Assembly (NCBI GenBank): GCA_036374795.1
Contig: DASUTC010000094.1
Location: 1-53,827, forward strand
Direction: 5' to 3'
Length of the DNA: 53,827 nucleotides
Origin: Herpetosiphonaceae bacterium
GTDB lineage: Bacteria > Chloroflexota > Chloroflexia > Chloroflexales > Kallotenuaceae
Position 1 is the first letter of the stretch, and every line of letters starts with the position of its first letter. Positions 45,062 to 53,827 of this stretch are shown here, piece by piece. Position numbers and translations under genes: made by a program. The notes beneath the pieces are model-generated. The model saw only the letters and a list, made by a program, of their open reading frames with translations, searched no databases and was not told the DNA's origin.

Positions 45062-45300
45062 CAAGCGCTTCGATCGCTTGTCGGGGCGTATCATTGCATG
45101 CGCCCCGACGAAGTTAATCGGATTTTGACATGATTTTGGTGCAGGCCGTAACCTTTACGATCCGTACTGCGCTTATATAGGTGAGGGAGGCGCTGTTTAT
45201 GTGTTCTCTGCCATTGTTCAATTAACAGTTCTCCTCATCCTCCACACGGCGAGCCGCACCCGTCATCAGGGTGCGGCTCCTTGCTTGACCGGACATCGGC
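45062..45300. other. Gap with hairpins between sdhB and the cyclase gene
   Basis: GTCGGGGCG/CGCCCCGAC (45080-45109) is a 9-bp hairpin behind sdhB. GAGCCGCACCC/GGGTGCGGCTC (45251-45279) is a perfect 11-bp hairpin between the two converging genes. Neither has a long T-run. A TTGACA at 45125-45130 with TAACCT 18 bases later could start a short plus-strand transcript ending at the second hairpin. Confidence 0.5.
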
Positions 45301-45307
45301 GCGTGGC

Positions 45308-46078
45308 CTATTCCTCGTGAAACGCGACCACCCGGCAGAAGGCAGCCTCGCCGTCCTTGAACTTCCACGGAAACACGCCGATCGTGGTGCGCTGGTTGAG
45401 CAGCCTGCCGATCTCGCCGCCCAGGCACTCTACATGGATGATCCCCGACGGGAAGAGCTTGAAGTGCATGCCCTGGTAATCCTCGGTCGGGAAGATCTCT
45501 TCCAGGCTCCTGCCGTGCTTCTCGCGCAGGTAGGCATCGGCTTTGCGCGCCTCATCGGGCCGCCAGTCGCGGATCTTGGTGTTGAACGGATGATCCTGCG
45601 AGCCACAGTCGACGCCCAGCAGCTTGAGCCGCTTCTTCAGGCACCACTCCCAGAACTCGCGGGTCGGGCCGGGATGGCGCAGCATATAGCGCTGCTCGTC
45701 GGCGTCGGGCTGATCCCAGCCGTAGCGCGAGTAGCCGGTGTAGATGAAGAGAATATCGTCCTCGCGCACCTCGACGCGCGCCTCGATGTCTTTCGACGTG
45801 TAGATCCCGTAGTCCTCGGCCATATCGGAGAGATCGACGATCACGCCGGGGCCGTAGAGCCGCTCCAGCGAGATCGAGGCGATGTCCTGGCCTCCGGTGA
45901 CGAAGTGGCACTGGCCGTCGAGGTGCGTGCCGACGTGGTTCGAGGAGCGGATGATCTGCCCGTTCGCGCCGTTGAAGCTCAGCCGCTTGAAGTAGTGGAC
46001 TTGCAGCGGCTCGTAGCTCGGCCAGGCCGGCGTGGCGATCCCGGTTGGAATGCTCAGATCGTACAGTTTCAGCGCCAT
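45308..46078 (-). CDS. Cyclase family metal-dependent hydrolase
   Basis: 256 residues with the family's metal motif H48-x-GT-H52-x-D54-x3-H58 (HVGTHLDGQCH). Relatives include kynurenine formamidase and isatin hydrolase, which open an amide or lactam using Mn or Zn. Its length and the tail after about 210 (SGIIHVECLGGEIGRLLN) fit the long form of the family. AAGGAG lies eight bases before the ATG. It is the last gene of the minus-strand cluster, about 100 bases after DUF1116, with a repeat hairpin in between. Confidence 0.88.
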   Translation of the reverse strand: MALKLYDLSIPTGIATPAWPSYEPLQVHYFKRLSFNGANGQIIRSSNHVGTHLDGQCHFVTGGQDIASISLERLYGPGVIVDLSDMAEDYGIYTSKDIEARVEVREDDILFIYTGYSRYGWDQPDADEQRYMLRHPGPTREFWEWCLKKRLKLLGVDCGSQDHPFNTKIRDWRPDEARKADAYLREKHGRSLEEIFPTEDYQGMHFKLFPSGIIHVECLGGEIGRLLNQRTTIGVFPWKFKDGEAAFCRVVAFHEE

Positions 46079-46107
46079 GCTATCAGCTCCTTGGTTTGAG
46101 TTTTGCA

Positions 46108-46165
46108 AGCCCTCACCCCTCTCTCTTACCACAGTGAGAGAGGAGGAGAAGGAGACGGTGGGGCT
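46108..46165 (-). repeat. GAGAGGGGTGAGGGC-type repeat
   Basis: On the minus strand it reads CCTCTCTCACTGTGGTAAGA then GAGAGGGGTGAGGGC, matching the third part of the composite repeat at about 10304-10352 in the opposite orientation. It forms a hairpin in the DUF1116-cyclase gap. Confidence 0.6.
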
Positions 46166-46178
46166 ACCCGCCCCGGCC

Positions 46179-47570
46179 TCACGGCCTTTGCTCTTCTACC
46201 AGCGCCAGCAGCGCCTGCTCGAAGCACTCGCGGGGCGGATGCACCAGACCAGCGCCGACCATCCCGATGCCTGGCTCGCGATGGGCGATGCCGGTATTGA
46301 TGATTGGCAGGATGCCCGTCTCGACCACGCGCCGCACGTCGATGCCGGTGGGAGCGCCCCGGAAGTTGAGCGCGGGCAGCGTAAAGGCCGGATTCTCCGC
46401 CAGCGTCAGCTCGTACATCGACAGCGTGTAGCGCAGCGCGTCCGCCGCCGTGCCGCCCACGAAGCCGACGATCGCCGGAGCGTTGCCCATGCAGAGGCCG
46501 CCGATGCCGCCCGTCTCGGTGATCGCCGAGTCGCCGATGTCGGGGTTGGCGTCGGCCTCGGTGAAGCCGGGGAAGAACAGGCCCCTGATCGTCTGGGCGG
46601 GCGCGGTAAACCAGCGGTCGCCGGTGCCGCTCACGCGAATGCCGAACTCGGTGCCGTTGCGCGCCATCGTCGTCACCAGCGTCGAGCGGGGGATATTGTG
46701 AGCCGCGTCGAGGCTGCACTTCATCGCGGGCATCGACAGATTGAGGAAGAAATGATCGTTGCCGCTGATGAACGCGAACGCCCGCGCCACCGTCTCGCGG
46801 TCGGCGGAGCCTGCCAGCAGATGCGGCGTGATCGCGCGGATAAAGAGCGAGGTTCCGGCCCGGTTGCGATTGTGGCACTCGTCGCCCATATGTAGCGCCT
46901 GCGCGATGAGCGCCTGAAGGTCGAGCCCGCCGGAGCGCTCGATCGCCTCGCGCAGCGCCGGGTAGAAGCGCTCGGCGATCCACTTGAGCTTCTCGATCAC
47001 GTCGGGAGCGTACGCGCCGTAGCGCAGCACCTTGCCCAGGCCCTCGTTGACCGTGGCATAGGCGCGATTGCCCGCCGCGCGATTCTCGACGATAAAGACC
47101 GGCATCGAGGCGGTGATCACCCCGGCCATCGGCCCGACAGCGGCGCGCTCGTGACAGGGCACGAAGCGAATCGCCCCCGACGCCGCCAGCGCCGTCGCGT
47201 CCTCCTCGGACTGAGCCAGGCCCTCGTAGATCAGCCCGCCGATCACCGCGCCGCGCAGCGGCCCCGACATCTGATCCCACTGGATAGGCGGTCCCGCGTG
47301 CAGCACCGTCGTCTGCGTCATGCCGGGAATGATCTCGCCCGCGATGCCCATCCCGACGAGCACCGGCCTGGCCTGAAGCAGCCGCTCGATCGCCTGCCGG
47401 TTGGCCTGCTCCACGTCGGGCCGCTCCAGCGCCGCCAGCGCCGCTGCCAGCCGGGGATTGCCGCCGCCCGGCGGCTGCCAATCGACATGCAGGACGGTCG
47501 CGCCCTGAGCGGCGAGCGCGTCGGCAAACAGCGATGTCCCGATGTTCAGAATGCGCGGCTCGGCGATCAT
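46179..47570 (-). CDS. DUF1116 protein (YlbE/AllG family, oxamate carbamoyltransferase subunit-like)
   Basis: 463 residues, full length. Family landmarks: LNIGTSLFADALAAQGATVL, GMGIAGEIIPGMTQTTVLHA, CHERAAVGPMAGVITASMPV, HMGDECHNRNRAGTSLFIRA, ISGNDHFFLNLSMPAMK and GNAPAIVGFVGG. In E. coli the YlbE family (AllG) acts with FdrA (AllF) and YlbF (AllH) as oxamate carbamoyltransferase, which turns oxalurate and phosphate into oxamate and carbamoyl phosphate. It overlaps fdrA by four bases (ATGA). The true substrate here is not known. Confidence 0.9.
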   Translation of the reverse strand: MIAEPRILNIGTSLFADALAAQGATVLHVDWQPPGGGNPRLAAALAALERPDVEQANRQAIERLLQARPVLVGMGIAGEIIPGMTQTTVLHAGPPIQWDQMSGPLRGAVIGGLIYEGLAQSEEDATALAASGAIRFVPCHERAAVGPMAGVITASMPVFIVENRAAGNRAYATVNEGLGKVLRYGAYAPDVIEKLKWIAERFYPALREAIERSGGLDLQALIAQALHMGDECHNRNRAGTSLFIRAITPHLLAGSADRETVARAFAFISGNDHFFLNLSMPAMKCSLDAAHNIPRSTLVTTMARNGTEFGIRVSGTGDRWFTAPAQTIRGLFFPGFTEADANPDIGDSAITETGGIGGLCMGNAPAIVGFVGGTAADALRYTLSMYELTLAENPAFTLPALNFRGAPTGIDVRRVVETGILPIINTGIAHREPGIGMVGAGLVHPPRECFEQALLALVEEQRP

Positions 47571-49024
47571 CTGGTGGCCTCCCTGGCTTTCAAAATCAAC
47601 CCGGCCAGTCCGGCGGCCTCAAGATTCGACTCGGCGACGACCGCGCCTGCCGCCTGCAACTGCGCGACCTGGCGGCTGCGATGCTGCGGATCGGCGTCGG
47701 TGCCGCAGACGTAGACCACGACCGGCTGCGCGATCTCGCTGAGCGCGGGAGCCAGCGCGGCTGCCGGATCGGGATGCGCGCCGTGGCCCAGCACCACATC
47801 CAGCAGCAGAGCCGCCGTGCTTGGATCGGCGGCGGCCTCGCGCAGCTTGTGCAGCCGCAGCGTGAAATCGATCATCGGGTGGGGACGGCCCACGGTGTAC
47901 TGGTCGTCGCCATAGTCGATCAGCTCGGCCTGCTCGGTAAGGCCCATCTGCGCAAGCTCAAGCCTGGCCTCGTCGCAGAGCGTGCCGCCCGAAAAGAGGC
48001 CGCGCAGCCGCGTGCCGGTGGCCGGAATCTGCGCCGCCAGCGCCACAGCTACCTCGCCGAGCGCGGTGTCATCCTGAGGCATGGCGGCCTGTCCAACGGC
48101 CAGCGCCGCCGCATCGCGCAGATTGGTCGCCAGCTCGACGCCAGCGGGCGCGTCGCCCCGGTAGCCCAGGAAGCAGGCCAGCCCGCGCTTGCCGGAGCCG
48201 CGCAGCTCGTCGAGCACCGCCGCCGCCACATCGGGATGGGGCGGCTTCGAGATCAGCAGGATCGTCTCGGTTTCGTCGTCGCGCGCCAGCAGCTCAATGC
48301 CCGCGCGCATCATCAGCCCGCCGACCTCAGGCCAGAGATCGCGCCCGCCGGTGCCGATGATCTGGCTCACGCCGCCGCCGTAGCGGTCGATCAGCGTGCT
48401 GACCTCCTGCGCGCCCGTGCCGGAGGCGCTGACGATGCCGATCGAGCCGCGCCGCACGACATTGGCGAAGCACAGCCCAGCGCCGCCAAGCATCGCCGTG
48501 CCACAGTCCGGCCCCATGCAGAGCAGGCCGCTAGCGCGCGCAAGCTGCTTTAGCTCGATCTCGTCTTCGAGCGCGACGTTATCGGAGAAGAGCATCACGT
48601 GCAGGCCGCTGCGCAGCGCTTGCAGCGCCTCGCGTTTGGCGAACGGGCCGGGCACCGAGATAATCGCGAGATCGGCGTCCGGCAACTGCCTGAGCGCGGC
48701 AGTAATCGTGCGCGGCGCTGGCTGTGCGCCGGATTCGTTGCTCGTCGCATTGCTGCGGCTGAGCGTTGTCTCGACGGCTGCGAGCGCCGCCTGGAGTGCC
48801 GCCGCGTCCTGCGCCTGGATCGCGACGATCAGGTCGTCGGGCTGCGCGGCGCTGGCCTCGTCGGCGAGCAATCCAACGCCTGCCAGCAGCGCCTTGTTGT
48901 GGTCGGTGCCCATCACCACCACGGCCTGCTCGACGCCGCGCAGCGCGGAAATCTGCTGGCTGATGCGCATCAGCGTCACCGAGTCGTAGTACGAGTGGGG
49001 CTTGATCAGCAGGTGTTGCTCCAT
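47567..49024 (-). CDS. fdrA: FdrA family protein (AllF-like carbamoyltransferase subunit)
   Basis: 485 residues. FdrA is built like a succinyl-CoA synthetase fused alpha/beta unit: SYYDSVTLMRISQQISALRG at the start, VPGPFAKREALQAL, LCMGPDCGTAMLGG and SGTGAQEVSTLIDRYGGGVS in the Rossmann/ligase part, and GLFSGGTLCDEARLEL in the C-terminal half. In E. coli FdrA is a subunit of the oxamate carbamoyltransferase. It lies between DUF2877 (five bases upstream) and DUF1116 (four-base overlap), the order expected of one complex. Confidence 0.93.
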   Translation of the reverse strand: MEQHLLIKPHSYYDSVTLMRISQQISALRGVEQAVVVMGTDHNKALLAGVGLLADEASAAQPDDLIVAIQAQDAAALQAALAAVETTLSRSNATSNESGAQPAPRTITAALRQLPDADLAIISVPGPFAKREALQALRSGLHVMLFSDNVALEDEIELKQLARASGLLCMGPDCGTAMLGGAGLCFANVVRRGSIGIVSASGTGAQEVSTLIDRYGGGVSQIIGTGGRDLWPEVGGLMMRAGIELLARDDETETILLISKPPHPDVAAAVLDELRGSGKRGLACFLGYRGDAPAGVELATNLRDAAALAVGQAAMPQDDTALGEVAVALAAQIPATGTRLRGLFSGGTLCDEARLELAQMGLTEQAELIDYGDDQYTVGRPHPMIDFTLRLHKLREAAADPSTAALLLDVVLGHGAHPDPAAALAPALSEIAQPVVVYVCGTDADPQHRSRQVAQLQAAGAVVAESNLEAAGLAGLILKAREATR

Positions 49025-49029
49025 CCTGG

Positions 49030-49926
49030 CTATCCTTGAGTGTTCCTAACAAAACCTCTAGGGAAGGAAAAGATCGATGGGGGACACCCCACACCCCCGT
49101 GCTCGCTTCCGGCTTCGCCCATGCCCACCAGACGCAGCCCGATCATGATCCCGGCGAGCGTGTCCGCTCCGGAGCTTGCGCCGTAGTGTAGCACGGTTTC
49201 GATCCGGTCCAGCCAGGCGGGCGCGGGCTGAGTAAAAAGGTCGCGCAGCAGCAGCAGCGTAGGCTCGCGCGCCAGGCCGTCCGCAGCCCAGTGCAGCAAG
49301 GCACGACCGAGCCGGGTTGTGTAGGCGCTTCGGGCAAGCTCGCGGAGCGCCTGAGCCTGCGGATGCCGCGCGTAGTGCAGCGTCAGCAGCAGCCCGACGA
49401 GCAGATCGTCGCCTGCCGGAGTCGCGCCGGGGCCAAGGCCGATCAGGCTGCGCGCCGCATCAGGAGCGGGCAGCGCGGCGATCGACGGCCCAGCCTGTGC
49501 GGCCAGCGCGCGCTGCATCGGCGATGTCGGCGCTTTGCCAAGCACGATCGGCAGCAGCCCATGCTCGATCGGATAGCGCTCCAGGGCCGTCGCCAGCGCC
49601 GCAGCATTGTCGATCGTCGGCGGGGCGGAAGGGGCGGAGTCGGCGGCAGACCAGCGCCGCGCCTTGCTCCAATCGAGCGACGGCCCTGCCGCGAAGCGCA
49701 GGCCATGATCGAGCGGCGTGAAGCGCGTGCCGACCGGCCACGGACGCGGCGCGACGAGCACCGCGTTCGGGCCGTTGCCCAGCTCCGGCGCGGCAAGCGT
49801 GATCAGCGTGCCCGCCTCGGTTTCGAGTGTGCAGGTGCGGCGGTGTGTCGCGATCACCCTGCCGGGATCTCGTGCCGCATCCAGCCGCGCATCGATCGAC
49901 ACCGCACGCACGGTCCCTACCGACAT
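49030..49926 (-). CDS. DUF2877 protein (YlbF/AllH family)
   Basis: 298 residues. The DUF2877 signature is GLGPGATPAGDDLLVGLLLT near residue 195 with LDHGLRFAAG earlier and ASSGADTLAGIMIGL near the end. In E. coli the YlbF family (AllH) is the third subunit of oxamate carbamoyltransferase. I start it at ATG 49926; the frame is open further upstream but runs into the Tpx gene. Its last 25 or so residues, after VGMGEAG, are read from a G-run repeat and look unlike family sequence, so the natural C-terminus may be earlier. Confidence 0.88.
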   Translation of the reverse strand: MSVGTVRAVSIDARLDAARDPGRVIATHRRTCTLETEAGTLITLAAPELGNGPNAVLVAPRPWPVGTRFTPLDHGLRFAAGPSLDWSKARRWSAADSAPSAPPTIDNAAALATALERYPIEHGLLPIVLGKAPTSPMQRALAAQAGPSIAALPAPDAARSLIGLGPGATPAGDDLLVGLLLTLHYARHPQAQALRELARSAYTTRLGRALLHWAADGLAREPTLLLLRDLFTQPAPAWLDRIETVLHYGASSGADTLAGIMIGLRLVGMGEAGSEHGGVGCPPSIFSFPRGFVRNTQG

Positions 49927-49940
49927 TATTGCCGCCCGGA

Positions 49941-50471
49941 TCAGTCGGCAGCATCGCGCGCCGCAGCACACGCCGCTTCGTAGTCCGGCTCGCGCATCTG
50001 GTCCACGACATAATCGGCGTACACAATCCGATTCTCGCGGTCGATCACGAAGACAGCCCGTTGCAGCAGCCGCCACTCCTTGATCAGCACGCCGTAGTCC
50101 TGCCCGAACTTCTCGCTCTTGTGCGCCGAAAGCGACTGATGGTTGACGTTCTCGGCGATGTGCCAGCGGGCCTGCGCGAACGGCAGATCCATGCTGATCG
50201 TATAGACGACCACATCGGCGGGCAGATTGGCACGCAGCTCTTCCCAGCGGCGCGTTTCGACATGGCAGACCGGCGTGTCAAGCGAGTTGACCACGTTGAG
50301 CAGCCGGACCTTTCCCGGCGAGTCCGAGAGGCGCACGCTCTGCATCACCCCATCCTGAGGATCGAAGCGCTCCAGCGTGAAGTCGGGCGCGGTATCGCCG
50401 GGCTTGAGCTTGCTGCCGACGACCGTCAGGTGCTCGTTGAGTTCAAACGCGGCGTTGGTTCGCTCCTCCAT
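49941..50471 (-). CDS. Tpx-like peroxiredoxin without the resolving cysteine
   Basis: 176 residues. The Tpx pattern is clear: GDTAPDFTL, LLNVVNSLDTPVCHVETRRW with peroxidatic Cys69, and SMDLPFAQARWH. E. coli Tpx has Cys where this protein has His104, so it should act as a one-Cys peroxiredoxin using an external thiol. The tail reads GVLIKEWRLLQRAVFVIDRE, then NRIVYADYV and EPDYEAA, as in the family. AGGAGG lies six bases before ATG 50471. It sits inside the amidase-DUF2877 operon and could deal with peroxide made by the molybdenum hydroxylase. Confidence 0.88.
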   Translation of the reverse strand: MEERTNAAFELNEHLTVVGSKLKPGDTAPDFTLERFDPQDGVMQSVRLSDSPGKVRLLNVVNSLDTPVCHVETRRWEELRANLPADVVVYTISMDLPFAQARWHIAENVNHQSLSAHKSEKFGQDYGVLIKEWRLLQRAVFVIDRENRIVYADYVVDQMREPDYEAACAAARDAAD

Positions 50472-50524
50472 GACCATCCTCCTTGATTGGCGCGCTGTTA
50501 ATCAGGTTCATTGGCCTCGTACGC

Positions 50525-51922
50525 TCAGATCGGCGGCTGCCGCTCATGCCACTCCGTCGCCTGCTCGAAGGCCGCGCCCGCTCGCAGCACCGCAGCCTCG
50601 GCCCACGCCCGCCCGACGATCTGCAAGCCGATCGGCAGATTGTCGCCGGTGAAGCCGCACGGCAGCGAGAGCGCGGGCACGCCCGCCAGGTTGAATGGCG
50701 CGGTAAAGCTCACCAGCGAAGGCCGCGTCGATTTAGCCTCCTCCGACTCGTGAATCAACGGCGCAGCGACCGGCGTCGTCGGCGTCAGCAGGATCTCGTA
50801 GTCGGCAAAGAGACGCTCGATCTCCCGGCGAAACGTGGCCTGCATCCGCCGCGCAAGCGCATACTCGACCGCCGTGAGCTTCGCGCCGCTCTGGAGCGCC
50901 TCAAGCACATCCGCGCCGAAGTCGTCGGGCTGCTCCTGCAAGCGCTCCCGATGGTAGGCCGCTGCGTCGCCCACGATCATGTTGAGCGTCGACCGGGTGG
51001 CGGCCTGCGCCTCCGGCAGCGCGATCTCGCGTACCTGCGCGCCAAGCTGCTCGAAGACCTGAGCCGCGCGCCGTACCGCCTGGGCCACAGCGGGATCGAC
51101 GGGCTTTGAGGCCGAGGTAAAGCCATCCAGCGCCAGCGCCACGCGCCAGCCCCGGACGCCCGCCTCAAGCCGCGCCGTGTAGTCCTCGGCGGGCATATCG
51201 AGCGAAGCCGGATCGCCGGGATCGTCACCCGCGAGCGTCTGGAGCAGCAGCGCCACGTCACGCACCCGCCGCCCCATCGGCCCGGCGTGGTCCAGGTTCC
51301 AGCTTAGCGGCAGCCCGCCGCGCATGCTGACGCGCCCAAAGGTTGGCTTGAGGCCGACCACGCCGCAGAAGGAGGCGGGAATGCGGATCGAGCCGCCGGT
51401 ATCGCTGCCGAGCGCGCCCAGGCAGAGCCGCGCGCTCAGCGCCGCGCCCGATCCGCCCGACGAGCCGCCCGCGATATGCTCGCGGCTCCACGGATTGCGG
51501 CAGGTACCCCAGTGCGGATTAATCGAGGTCACGCTCATCGCCCACTCGTGCATATTCAGCTTGCCGAGCAGGATCGCCCCGGCGGCGCGCAGCCGCTCCA
51601 CTACGGCGCTATCGGCGGTGGAGATGTACGCGGCCAGATGCTTCGATCCGGCGGTAGTGCGCACGCCGCGCGTCTCGAAGAGATCTTTGATCGCCAGCGG
51701 CAGGCCATGCAGCGGCCCGCGATACGCGCCGCGCCCGATCTCGGCCTGGGCCTGCCGCGCCTGCTCAAGCGCTGCCTCGCCCGTGACGGTGATAAAGCTG
51801 TGCACCTGGGGATCGAGCCGCGCGATCCGATCGAGATGCGCCTCCGTCAGCTCCACGGGCGAGACGGCGCGGCGGGCAATCAGATCGGCGGCCTGCTTCA
51901 GCGTCAGCGCGGTCAGATCCAT
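50525..51922 (-). CDS. Amidase signature family enzyme (GatA/AtzF-like)
   Basis: 465 residues. The Ser-cisSer-Lys triad falls at K79 (LPLAIKD), S154 (GGSSGGSG) and S178 (GSDTGGSIRIPA), the same numbers as in GatA. The C-terminal region GVPALSLPCGFTGDNLPIGLQIVG is standard. The frame extends upstream into the hydroxylase gene but similarity starts at ATG 51922, one base from that gene's stop region. With no gatB/gatC beside it and catabolic neighbours, I read it as a catabolic amidase, for example one acting on a ureide or carbamoyl amide. Confidence 0.9.
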   Translation of the reverse strand: MDLTALTLKQAADLIARRAVSPVELTEAHLDRIARLDPQVHSFITVTGEAALEQARQAQAEIGRGAYRGPLHGLPLAIKDLFETRGVRTTAGSKHLAAYISTADSAVVERLRAAGAILLGKLNMHEWAMSVTSINPHWGTCRNPWSREHIAGGSSGGSGAALSARLCLGALGSDTGGSIRIPASFCGVVGLKPTFGRVSMRGGLPLSWNLDHAGPMGRRVRDVALLLQTLAGDDPGDPASLDMPAEDYTARLEAGVRGWRVALALDGFTSASKPVDPAVAQAVRRAAQVFEQLGAQVREIALPEAQAATRSTLNMIVGDAAAYHRERLQEQPDDFGADVLEALQSGAKLTAVEYALARRMQATFRREIERLFADYEILLTPTTPVAAPLIHESEEAKSTRPSLVSFTAPFNLAGVPALSLPCGFTGDNLPIGLQIVGRAWAEAAVLRAGAAFEQATEWHERQPPI

Positions 51923-51923
51923 C

Positions 51924-53827
51924 TCACGCTCCCACCTGCTGACGAGCCTGCTGCACCAGCTCCCACAGCTTGCTGGGACTGAGCGGAATCTCCAGAATCT
52001 CGATGCCGCTACCGGCCAGCGCGTCTTCCAGCGCCTGCGCGTAGAGCGGCCCGACCGGAATCGCGCCTGCCTCGCCCGCGCCTTTGACGCCCAGCGGGTT
52101 GAGCGGCGATGGCGTTTCCTCGTGTCCGATGTCGATACGCGGCACGTCCGTTGCGGTCGGCAGCAGGTAGTCCATGAACGAGGCGTTGAGCAGTTGACCG
52201 CTCTCGTCGTAGAGCAACTGCTCGTAGAAGGCGTTGCCGATGCCCTGCGCGACGCCGCCGTGAACCTGGCCCTCAAGGATCAGCGGGTTGATCACCGTGC
52301 CACAGTCGTGGACGACCACATAGCGATGGATCTTCAGGTTGAAGCTGTCGGGATCGACCTCGACGATCATCGCGTGCGCGCCGCTGGCGGTCGCGCCCAT
52401 TGGCGGGCCGAAGTAGGCCGTGGCCTCCAGGCCGGGCTCGGTGCCGGGCTGGACCGCGCCGCGCAGTGGGTTGGCCCGCGCCGCCAGCGTGGCGAGGCTG
52501 ATCCGCGCTTCGGGAGCGCCGCGCACCTGGGCGTAGCCGTCCACCAGCTCGATGTCCTCCGCCGCCGCCTCCAGCTCCTCCGCCGCCAGCCGCAGCGCTT
52601 TCTGGCGCACCTGCTGGGCGGCAGCATGAACCGCAGCGCCCGCGACGGTCGCGCCCCGGCTGGCGAAGGTGCCAGTGCCCCAGTTGAACTGCGCGGTATC
52701 GCCCGTCGAGACGAGCACCTGCTCGATCGGCACGCCCAGCGCGTCGGCGGCGATCTGCGCGAAGACCGTGTAGTGACCCTGCCCCTGCGTCCCGACTCCC
52801 GTCGCCACCGTGATCTTGCCGGTCGCCTCGACCTGCACGCGCGCGCCCTCGTACGGCCCGATGCCGGTGCCCTCGACGTAGAGCACCAGCCCGATCCCGA
52901 CCAGCCTGCCCTCGGCGCGCAGGCGCGGCCCTTCGCTCCGGCGAAACTCGTCCCAGCCGATCATCTGCTTCGCTTTGTCGAGCACCGGCTCATAGTTGCC
53001 GCTGTCGTAGGTCAGCTTGGTAAAGTCCTGAAAGATAATCTCATTGCACCACGGAAACTGGTCGGGCGGGATCAGGTTGCGGCGGCGCAGCTCAAGCGGA
53101 TCGATGCCCAGCTCTCTGGCGGCGATGTCCAGCAGCCGCTCGATCACGAACACGCCATGCTGGCGGCCAGCGCCGCGATAGGGCGTCACGATCATTTTGT
53201 TGGTAAAGATCGCCTTGAACTCGGTGTAGTAGTGCGGCACGACGTACGGCCCCAGCAGCGTACACTGCGTGTTGAGCGGCACGGTCAGGCCGTAGGGATC
53301 GTACGCGCCGGTGTCGTGAAGAAACACATCTTTGACGCCCAGGATCTTGCCGTCGCGGGTCAGCGCGATCTCGGCGTCGTGGACCTGGCCGCGCTCGTGG
53401 GTCATGGCGAGAAAATTCTCCAGCCGGTCCTCGATCCATTTGATCGGACGCTCAAGGCGCATCGCGGCCCACGGCACCAGCGTCTCCTCAGGGTAGAACA
53501 TCATGATCTTGGGTCCGAAGCCGCCGCCGACAAAGCGGGCGATCACCCGCACCTGCCGCTCCGAGAGGCCCAGCATCCGCGCCAGCCCATTGCGAATCGG
53601 AATCGGAGCCTGGGTCGAATCCCACACGGTAAGCTGGCGCGCCAGCGGCTCGTAGTGCGCGACGACGCCCCGGCCTTCCATCGGCGCTGCCGTGCCGCGA
53701 TCGTAGAGCATGCGCCGCGCGACGATCAGATCGGCCTGCGCGCGGGCGGCGGCGTAGTCACCCTTGGTCTGGATCACATGCGCCGCGACGTTCGAGCCAA
53801 GATCCTGGTGCACCAGCGTGCTGTCGG
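51924..53827 (-). CDS. Xanthine dehydrogenase family molybdopterin-binding subunit, N-terminus cut by window edge
   Basis: At least 634 residues; the frame is still open at base 53827. Molybdenum hydroxylase motifs are FVGGGFGPKIMMFYPEE, VTPYRGAGRQHGVF, GVGTQGQGHYTVFAQIAADA, and the catalytic Glu in GVKGAGEAGAIP. The active-site loop reads PYRGAGR, as in form II (CoxL-like) or general hydroxylases, and not the AYRCSFR of true form I CO dehydrogenase. It should hydroxylate an N-heterocycle or aldehyde using water. FAD and Fe-S partners would lie beyond the right edge. It leads the part of the operon seen here. Confidence 0.93.
   Translation of the reverse strand, partial: DSTLVHQDLGSNVAAHVIQTKGDYAAARAQADLIVARRMLYDRGTAAPMEGRGVVAHYEPLARQLTVWDSTQAPIPIRNGLARMLGLSERQVRVIARFVGGGFGPKIMMFYPEETLVPWAAMRLERPIKWIEDRLENFLAMTHERGQVHDAEIALTRDGKILGVKDVFLHDTGAYDPYGLTVPLNTQCTLLGPYVVPHYYTEFKAIFTNKMIVTPYRGAGRQHGVFVIERLLDIAARELGIDPLELRRRNLIPPDQFPWCNEIIFQDFTKLTYDSGNYEPVLDKAKQMIGWDEFRRSEGPRLRAEGRLVGIGLVLYVEGTGIGPYEGARVQVEATGKITVATGVGTQGQGHYTVFAQIAADALGVPIEQVLVSTGDTAQFNWGTGTFASRGATVAGAAVHAAAQQVRQKALRLAAEELEAAAEDIELVDGYAQVRGAPEARISLATLAARANPLRGAVQPGTEPGLEATAYFGPPMGATASGAHAMIVEVDPDSFNLKIHRYVVVHDCGTVINPLILEGQVHGGVAQGIGNAFYEQLLYDESGQLLNASFMDYLLPTATDVPRIDIGHEETPSPLNPLGVKGAGEAGAIPVGPLYAQALEDALAGSGIEILEIPLSPSKLWELVQQARQQVGA

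Follow-up and report, generated by a model that had tools for sequence, protein, structure and literature searches.

The oxamic transcarbamylase of Escherichia coli is encoded by allFGH and interconverts oxalurate plus inorganic phosphate and oxamate plus carbamoyl phosphate, with a KM for oxamate of 36.9 mM (PMC11326118). Homologues of all three subunits are encoded in the window analyzed here, which is 53,827 nt long and represents the whole contig DASUTC010000094.1 (C94 of genome G000) of assembly GCA_036374795.1 from a Herpetosiphonaceae bacterium. They are part of a minus-strand operon that also encodes a molybdenum hydroxylase, a PF04199 cyclase-family hydrolase, and an amidase. This operon is likely to serve the oxidative catabolism of uracil, possibly also of thymine—a reading that we draw, for every reaction step and for the order of the steps, from gene content, homology, conserved linkage, and uracil-type permease residues. 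The E. coli allFGHK cluster adjoins allECD and carbamate kinase for allantoin (PMC11326118, PMC9843812), whereas the window set adjoins hydroxylase, cyclase, and amidase, its genome lacks carbamate kinase, and its AllG falls into a different clade. The phosphorolytic carbamoyl transfer is presumed to be common to both.

The actinobacterial oxidative pyrimidine pathway (Soong et al., as outlined in PMC3758960) proceeds by uracil oxidation, an AtzD-type barbiturase, and hydrolysis by ureidomalonase to urea. According to this outline, it shares with the pathway proposed here the substrate, barbiturate, ureidomalonate, and the product malonate. In the window, a PF04199 cyclase would replace or complement barbiturase, AllFGH would bring about phosphorolysis, and a candidate gene set for uracil oxidation is present. 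Descriptions of oxidative pyrimidine breakdown date back to the 1950s. It has been called rare because a survey of 6423 genomes turned up barbiturase homologues in just 3% (PMC3758960). The E. coli ygeW/yqeA/xdhD uric-acid cluster also combines a molybdenum hydroxylase with phosphorolytic carbamoyl removal but belongs to a reductive purine pathway and features the unrelated carbamoyltransferase YgeW and different hydrolases (PMC12507026). In nitrifiers, allFGHK clusters likewise lie outside allantoin loci; they adjoin biuret/triuret genes, and the portion of that account considered here mentions neither cyclase nor hydroxylase (PMC12625717). The E. coli yahEFG-yahI locus (L008) carries a paralogous FdrA/DUF1116/DUF2877 set with the carbamate kinase-like YahI and differs from the window in that no cyclase or hydroxylase adjoins it. 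Within the openly licensed literature, neither a gene for the uracil-oxidizing step nor the combination of molybdenum hydroxylase, PF04199 cyclase, AllFGH, and uracil permease was found described, the latter being no proof of absence. The enzyme families and the pathway outline are already known; the operon combination is apparently undescribed.

The operon consists of the following features, with positions in the window unless contig C128 (L204) of the same genome is named:

45308..46078, minus strand: PF04199 cyclase-family metal hydrolase of 256 aa, proposed ring-opening (barbiturate) hydrolase (Pfam, 116.5 bits)
46179..47570, minus strand: AllG (DUF1116), carbamoyltransferase subunit (PF06545, 331 bits)
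47567..49024, minus strand: AllF (FdrA), carbamoyltransferase subunit (PRK06091, 454.1 bits, cut-off 433)
49030..49926, minus strand: AllH (DUF2877), carbamoyltransferase subunit (PF11392, 83.8 bits)
49941..50477, minus strand: Tpx-like thiol peroxidase, probably accessory (NCBIfam PRK00522, 149.2 bits, cut-off 123)
50525..51922, minus strand: amidase-signature hydrolase of 465 aa, proposed malonamate (or ureidomalonate) amidase (PF01425, 409 bits)
51924..53825, minus strand: molybdenum hydroxylase large subunit XL, 633 aa with the N-terminus missing, proposed uracil hydroxylase (MoCoBD_1/2, 251/291 bits)
C128, 1-441, minus strand: N-terminus of XL
C128, 429-905, minus strand: [2Fe-2S] subunit XS
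C128, 935-1816, minus strand: FAD subunit XM
45250..45279: hairpin between the convergent sdhB and cyclase genes, a possible shared terminator (-26.8 kcal/mol, z -3.9)

The first-pass annotation of the window had described seven tightly packed minus-strand genes; the cluster is real and lies at that position, all seven genes are present, and their identities are confirmed by Pfam or NCBIfam. The AllH reading frame runs up to 50076, with 49926 as the likelier start after refinement. With refined starts, the spacing is 1 bp from the XL stop to the amidase, 47 bp from amidase to Tpx, 14 bp from Tpx to AllH, and 5 bp from AllH to AllF; AllF and AllG overlap by 4 bp, and 100 bp separate AllG from the cyclase. 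Ribosome-binding-like motifs (AGGAG/GGAGG) precede several starts. The cluster is bounded by the convergent sdhB on one side and by the right end of the window on the other; XL is cut there because the window is a complete contig. A search of the same genome found the XL N-terminus at the first bases of C128 (67% identity, query residues 5-148), and the FAD and iron-sulfur subunits of a xanthine dehydrogenase (XDH)-type enzyme, which the annotation had proposed to seek to the right of the window, both follow it there. No sequence overlap joins the two contigs; we judge that the split XL frame resumes on C128 after a gap of a few residues. A divergent gene lies beyond XM. The full operon thus has nine genes in the order XM-XS-XL-amidase-Tpx-AllH-AllF-AllG-cyclase, and the window and C128 together encode all three parts of the hydroxylase: the MoCoBD large subunit, the FAD subunit, and the [2Fe-2S] subunit. 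In a congener (G001), order and strand are conserved for all seven genes of the window, at 63-93% amino-acid identity, and an extra 153-aa open reading frame that matches no Pfam family lies between AllH and AllF; the hydroxylase of the congener is likewise truncated by a contig end. Among the loci examined, this genus alone has a Tpx gene at the junction of AllH and amidase. The gene is probably incidental to the pathway; a role as pathway enzyme was rejected as unsupported outside the genus.

In the proposed pathway, the hydroxylase (XL/XS/XM) would introduce a water-derived oxygen into uracil to yield barbiturate, the ring of which would be opened by the PF04199 cyclase to give ureidomalonate. 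AllFGH would phosphorolyze ureidomalonate to malonamate and carbamoyl phosphate—the natural product pair, since ureidomalonate is one CH2 longer than oxalurate. The amidase would cleave malonamate to malonate and ammonia, and malonate would proceed via malonyl-CoA to acetyl-CoA, presumably by enzymes that relatives encode within the operon and the genome of the window encodes at other loci. Carbamoyl phosphate would be used for ATP formation by carbamate kinase where the gene is present. The first-pass annotation had already put forward a route in which a ring is hydroxylated and hydrolytically opened before the carbamoyl group is transferred by phosphorolysis, and this logic appears largely right. 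Its starting compound had been left unknown; given the permease type, the malonyl-type exit, the AtzD-family neighbors, and the cytosine-deaminase-like genes, it is now most likely uracil and not a purine or hydantoin. If true, the operon provides candidate genes for uracil hydroxylation, for a non-AtzD barbiturate hydrolase, and for an ATP-yielding carbamoyl exit, and it suggests that the oxidative pyrimidine route is common in anaerobes. Direct testing is possible because carriers have been cultured: Clostridium magnum, Carboxydothermus islandicus, Acidaminobacter hydrogenoformans, and Acetomicrobium hydrogeniformans.

The three carbamoyltransferase subunits are encoded together and are 42% (AllF), 48% (AllG), and 28% (AllH) identical to those of E. 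coli allFGHK, which supports by homology the earlier equation with oxamic transcarbamylase (PMC11326118). AllG shares 48-49% identity with both AllG and YahG of E. coli, and AllF matches the FdrA structure PDB 3DMY with 267 bits. In the AllG tree, the window lies within a clade of 69 cyclase-linked rows with zero cyclase-less rows inside, at a modest support of SH-aLRT 85 and with some long branches that are unreliable; it does not group with E. coli AllG, which falls elsewhere. With this operon, FdrA/DUF1116/DUF2877 would gain a testable second role besides oxamic transcarbamylase, their sole demonstrated activity. A separate arrangement in Chloroflexota (L042, L044, L061, L067, L073) combines a PucR-type regulator, AllHFG, carbamate kinase, and an isochorismatase-family hydrolase, has neither hydroxylase nor cyclase, and probably serves a different ureide route (biuret or oxalurate).

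Neighborhoods were mapped by tblastn in place of longest-reading-frame calls, which in G+C-rich loci could pick the antisense strand. Of 400 phylum genomes, 71 encode AllG (PF06545); of the 60 nearest relatives searched, only 3 do. The comparison of DUF1116 neighborhoods in Chloroflexota that the annotation had called for reveals a conserved context: among 76 of them, the cyclase is found in 33, the hydroxylase in 32, and both in 28. The refutation named in the annotation takes three joint failures, one of them an unconserved neighborhood, and the neighborhood is conserved. With the cyclase as the only query, the best 80 loci (60-94% identity) come from Bacillota, Synergistota, Spirochaetota, Thermotogota, Atribacterota, Elusimicrobia, and Chloroflexota; AllF or AllG is present in 61 of them, the hydroxylase in 43, and both in 37, and the cyclase directly follows AllG in 51. 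When only loci of at least 15 kb are considered (n = 51), the numbers are 46 for AllF/AllG and 35 for the hydroxylase. The gene set without Tpx is genuinely and widely conserved.

The hydroxylase XL shares 68-72% identity with its counterparts in other AllFGH-cyclase loci, for instance L038, L071, L085, L086, and L087, and is nearest to carbon monoxide dehydrogenase (CODH) and quinoline-oxidoreductase types. Its best NCBIfam match is CODH group 5 with 799.1 bits, below the cut-off of 950. The active-site loop of form-I CoxL, the large subunit of aerobic CODH, we take to be AYXCSFR; XL carries TPYRGAGR instead, and together with the missed cut-off this led us to reject XL as CoxL. The substrate-binding Glu of XDH is presumed to follow GGGFG at the position of bovine E802 (GGGFGxKx). 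XL has an Ile there (GGGFGPKI), although this marker is imperfect as the compared E. coli XdhA and XdhD have a Gln. XL as an XDH was rejected because the Glu is missing and XdhA is matched with 313 bits against a cut-off of 780. The genome of the window features a separate purine locus on contig C297 (L238:1-6044) with an AllC-like amidohydrolase (37%), an allantoinase (580 bits), and a distinct XDH that is 29% identical to E. coli XdhA. The earlier remark that there is no allantoin gene hence holds for the window and fails for the genome; since this locus has its own XDH, the window hydroxylase is unlikely to be the XDH of the genome.

The cyclase carries a H..THLD..H metal motif that is invariant in nine relatives. 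Its predicted model (mean pLDDT 68.7) matches the folds of isatin hydrolase and kynurenine formamidase, two members of its family, with E values of 1e-5 to 1e-9, so that both the motif and the fold of the PF04199/isatin hydrolase type are present; isatin hydrolase is itself a cyclic-amide hydrolase. Several Chloroflexota encode a cyclase of 554-637 aa in which two PF04199 domains are fused in tandem (L069:10072-11745, L087:6944-8614, L038, L066, L074, L092). Known members of the AtzD/TrzD family act on cyanuric acid and barbiturate (PMC3758960). AtzD/barbiturase (PF09663) has no match in the genome of the window, occurs in 18 of 400 phylum genomes, and is missing from most AllFGH loci and from 34 of the 35 genomes searched. 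Another ring opener is therefore needed in most AllFGH loci, and no hydrolase other than the cyclase is near-universal there. An AtzD-family gene has the same hydroxylase (73-78% identical) next to it in 8 of 11 neighborhoods, all without AllFG; six of these eight have the FAD subunit and the cyclase, all eight an amidase, four a cytosine-deaminase-like gene, and three a permease. We regard these loci as an alternative exit from the same intermediate. The AtzD-family protein of L211 passes the family cut-off (329.9 versus 153.1) and misses the cyanuric-acid-hydrolase equivalog (334.4 versus 360). The Chloroflexota AtzD loci L211-L218 (family f25) mostly carry cyclase, amidase, and malonyl-CoA-synthetase- or permease-type genes. 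In relative G123, whose hydroxylase-AllFGH-permease locus has no cyclase, an AtzD-family gene lies directly downstream of a different molybdenum hydroxylase that is 35% identical to XL (L210:7920-11531).

Most complete operons of relatives contain an NCS2 permease gene. The uracil site of UraA is taken to comprise A31, S72, F73, E241, H245, G289, and E290. Among 40 locus permeases, 37 carry a Glu at position 290, 36 of them together with E241, whereas a Gln occupies position 290 in XanQ and UacT of E. coli; the reference set is itself uracil-like. The permease of the Clostridium rhizosphaerae operon exceeds the uracil-permease equivalog cut-off (617 versus 477 bits), and that of L043 is RutG-like (522 bits). 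A uracil-type permease is hence linked to the operon in relatives, and in the genome of the window it is encoded elsewhere, on contig C67. This copy keeps all seven compared residues, is 59.5% identical to the operon permease of L055, and groups with Chloroflexota operon permeases at 100/100 support. Cytosine-deaminase-like genes recur in both AllFGH and AtzD-family loci.

Carbamate kinase, for which the annotation had suggested a genome-wide search, was not found in the genome of the window (a 20.8-bit partial match at a cut-off of 358) and is likewise missing in the congener, although it is encoded in 27 of the 37 phylum genomes that carry AllG. Carbamoyl phosphate therefore probably enters pyrimidine or arginine synthesis here or is hydrolyzed. 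As deletion of the catabolic carbamate kinase of E. coli barely altered allantoin use (PMC9843812), the missing kinase does not refute carbamoyl-phosphate formation. For the C3 unit, the amidase—or a CN-hydrolase, the gene of which is found in loci of other lineages—would suit malonamate hydrolysis; the amidase carries the GGSSGG and LAIKD catalytic motifs and is 76% identical in the congener and 62% in G030. The L211 enzyme encoded by a gene overlapping the cyclase gene has malonyl-CoA synthetases as its five best solved relatives (321-258 bits), with oxalate-CoA ligase at 235. L071 has a malonyl-CoA-synthase-like gene as well (553.9 versus 558), to which little weight is given because a 5'-3' exonuclease gene separates it from AllH; L211 is the clean case. 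The best match within the genome of the window (C128:15863-17326, 382 bits) was rejected as operon-linked malonyl-CoA synthetase, being nearer to solved fatty-acyl/feruloyl-CoA ligases.

In Carboxydothermus islandicus, a co-directional run (L118:7328-20759) encodes AllG, a class III CoA-transferase, the cyclase, carbamate kinase, a CN-hydrolase, a nitroreductase-like protein, an mmdA-type carboxyltransferase, OAD_gamma, a biotin carrier, OAD_beta, hydroxylase subunits, and a permease. The predicted four-gene Na+-type biotin-dependent decarboxylase fits malonyl-CoA decarboxylation (methylmalonyl-CoA if thymine is used), making this run a candidate operon for energy-conserving uracil fermentation. 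That such a fermentation is widespread in Bacillota, Spirochaetota, Synergistota, Thermotogota, and Chloroflexota, with ATP gained via carbamate kinase and a Na+-pumping malonyl-CoA decarboxylase, has in our estimate an even chance of being correct; the window would then be the Chloroflexota version without carbamate kinase.

Several observations weigh against the uracil pathway as formulated. Two hydroxylase types only ~30% identical pair with the same partners across loci, so that the same reaction in both is only assumed. The uracil-like permease reference set may lead to an under-count of divergent xanthine permeases, the permease of the genome itself lies outside the operon, carbamate kinase is missing, and the C297 purine locus makes an oxalurate role of AllFGH possible. 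The exact step of the cyclase is the weakest link of the pathway: it is kept where an AtzD-family opener is present, so its step is uncertain and it may act elsewhere. In the same pyrimidine pathway, the ring could accordingly be opened by the AtzD family or another enzyme, with the cyclase acting on ureidomalonate or malonamate. The six AtzD-family loci that retain the cyclase beside the hydroxylase (77-83% identical to references), the cyclase-less loci L077 and L080 with hydroxylase, AllFGH, and permease, and the AtzD-family protein of their relative G123 are in line with this division of labor; the scarcity of AtzD genes and the kinship of the cyclase with isatin hydrolase argue for ring opening by the cyclase, and we consider the swap conceivable but rather unlikely.

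Another substrate would be hydantoin (or imidazolone), converted by the hydroxylase to parabanate, by the cyclase to oxalurate, by AllFGH to oxamate and carbamoyl phosphate, and by the amidase to oxalate and ammonia. AllFGH has been shown to act on oxamate/oxalurate (PMC11326118), parabanic acid is listed as an inducer of oxamate transcarbamylase (title of Tigier & Grisolia 1965, cited in PMC3364942), AllH or the cyclase has a dihydropyrimidinase/hydantoinase gene as neighbor in L085, L038, and L139, and the k7 CoA-transferase is nearest to CoA:oxalate CoA-transferase in NCBIfam. The uracil-type permeases, a decarboxylase and CoA synthetase indicative of a malonyl unit, AtzD-family neighbors that suit barbiturate, and the lack of an oxalyl-CoA decarboxylase above cut-off in the genome of the window (207.8 versus 739) nevertheless render this route improbable. 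Less probable still is a role of the operon at the end of purine breakdown, in which the hydroxylase would be an XDH and AllFGH would act on allantoin-derived oxalurate. AllFGH does serve allantoin degradation in E. coli, and the C297 allantoinase and AllC-like protein would suit this, but that locus has its own XDH, XL lacks the XDH Glu and is nearest to CODH/quinoline-oxidoreductase types, AllG lies in the cyclase-linked clade apart from E. coli AllG, and allantoin genes were not seen in the cyclase-linked loci examined. Finally, accidental adjacency of unrelated genes, which Tpx with its lack of an obvious pathway role might suggest, is rejected with near certainty because the set recurs across many phyla in several arrangements.

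A further cassette (k8, k9, k13; L123:3858-4550, with homologues in 16 loci) recurs in cyclase loci, mostly where the CoA-transferase and nitrilase are missing. Its products are an SCP2-like thiolase, a zinc-ribbon protein of the DUF35 type, and a 229-aa protein (k8) that matches no Pfam family.

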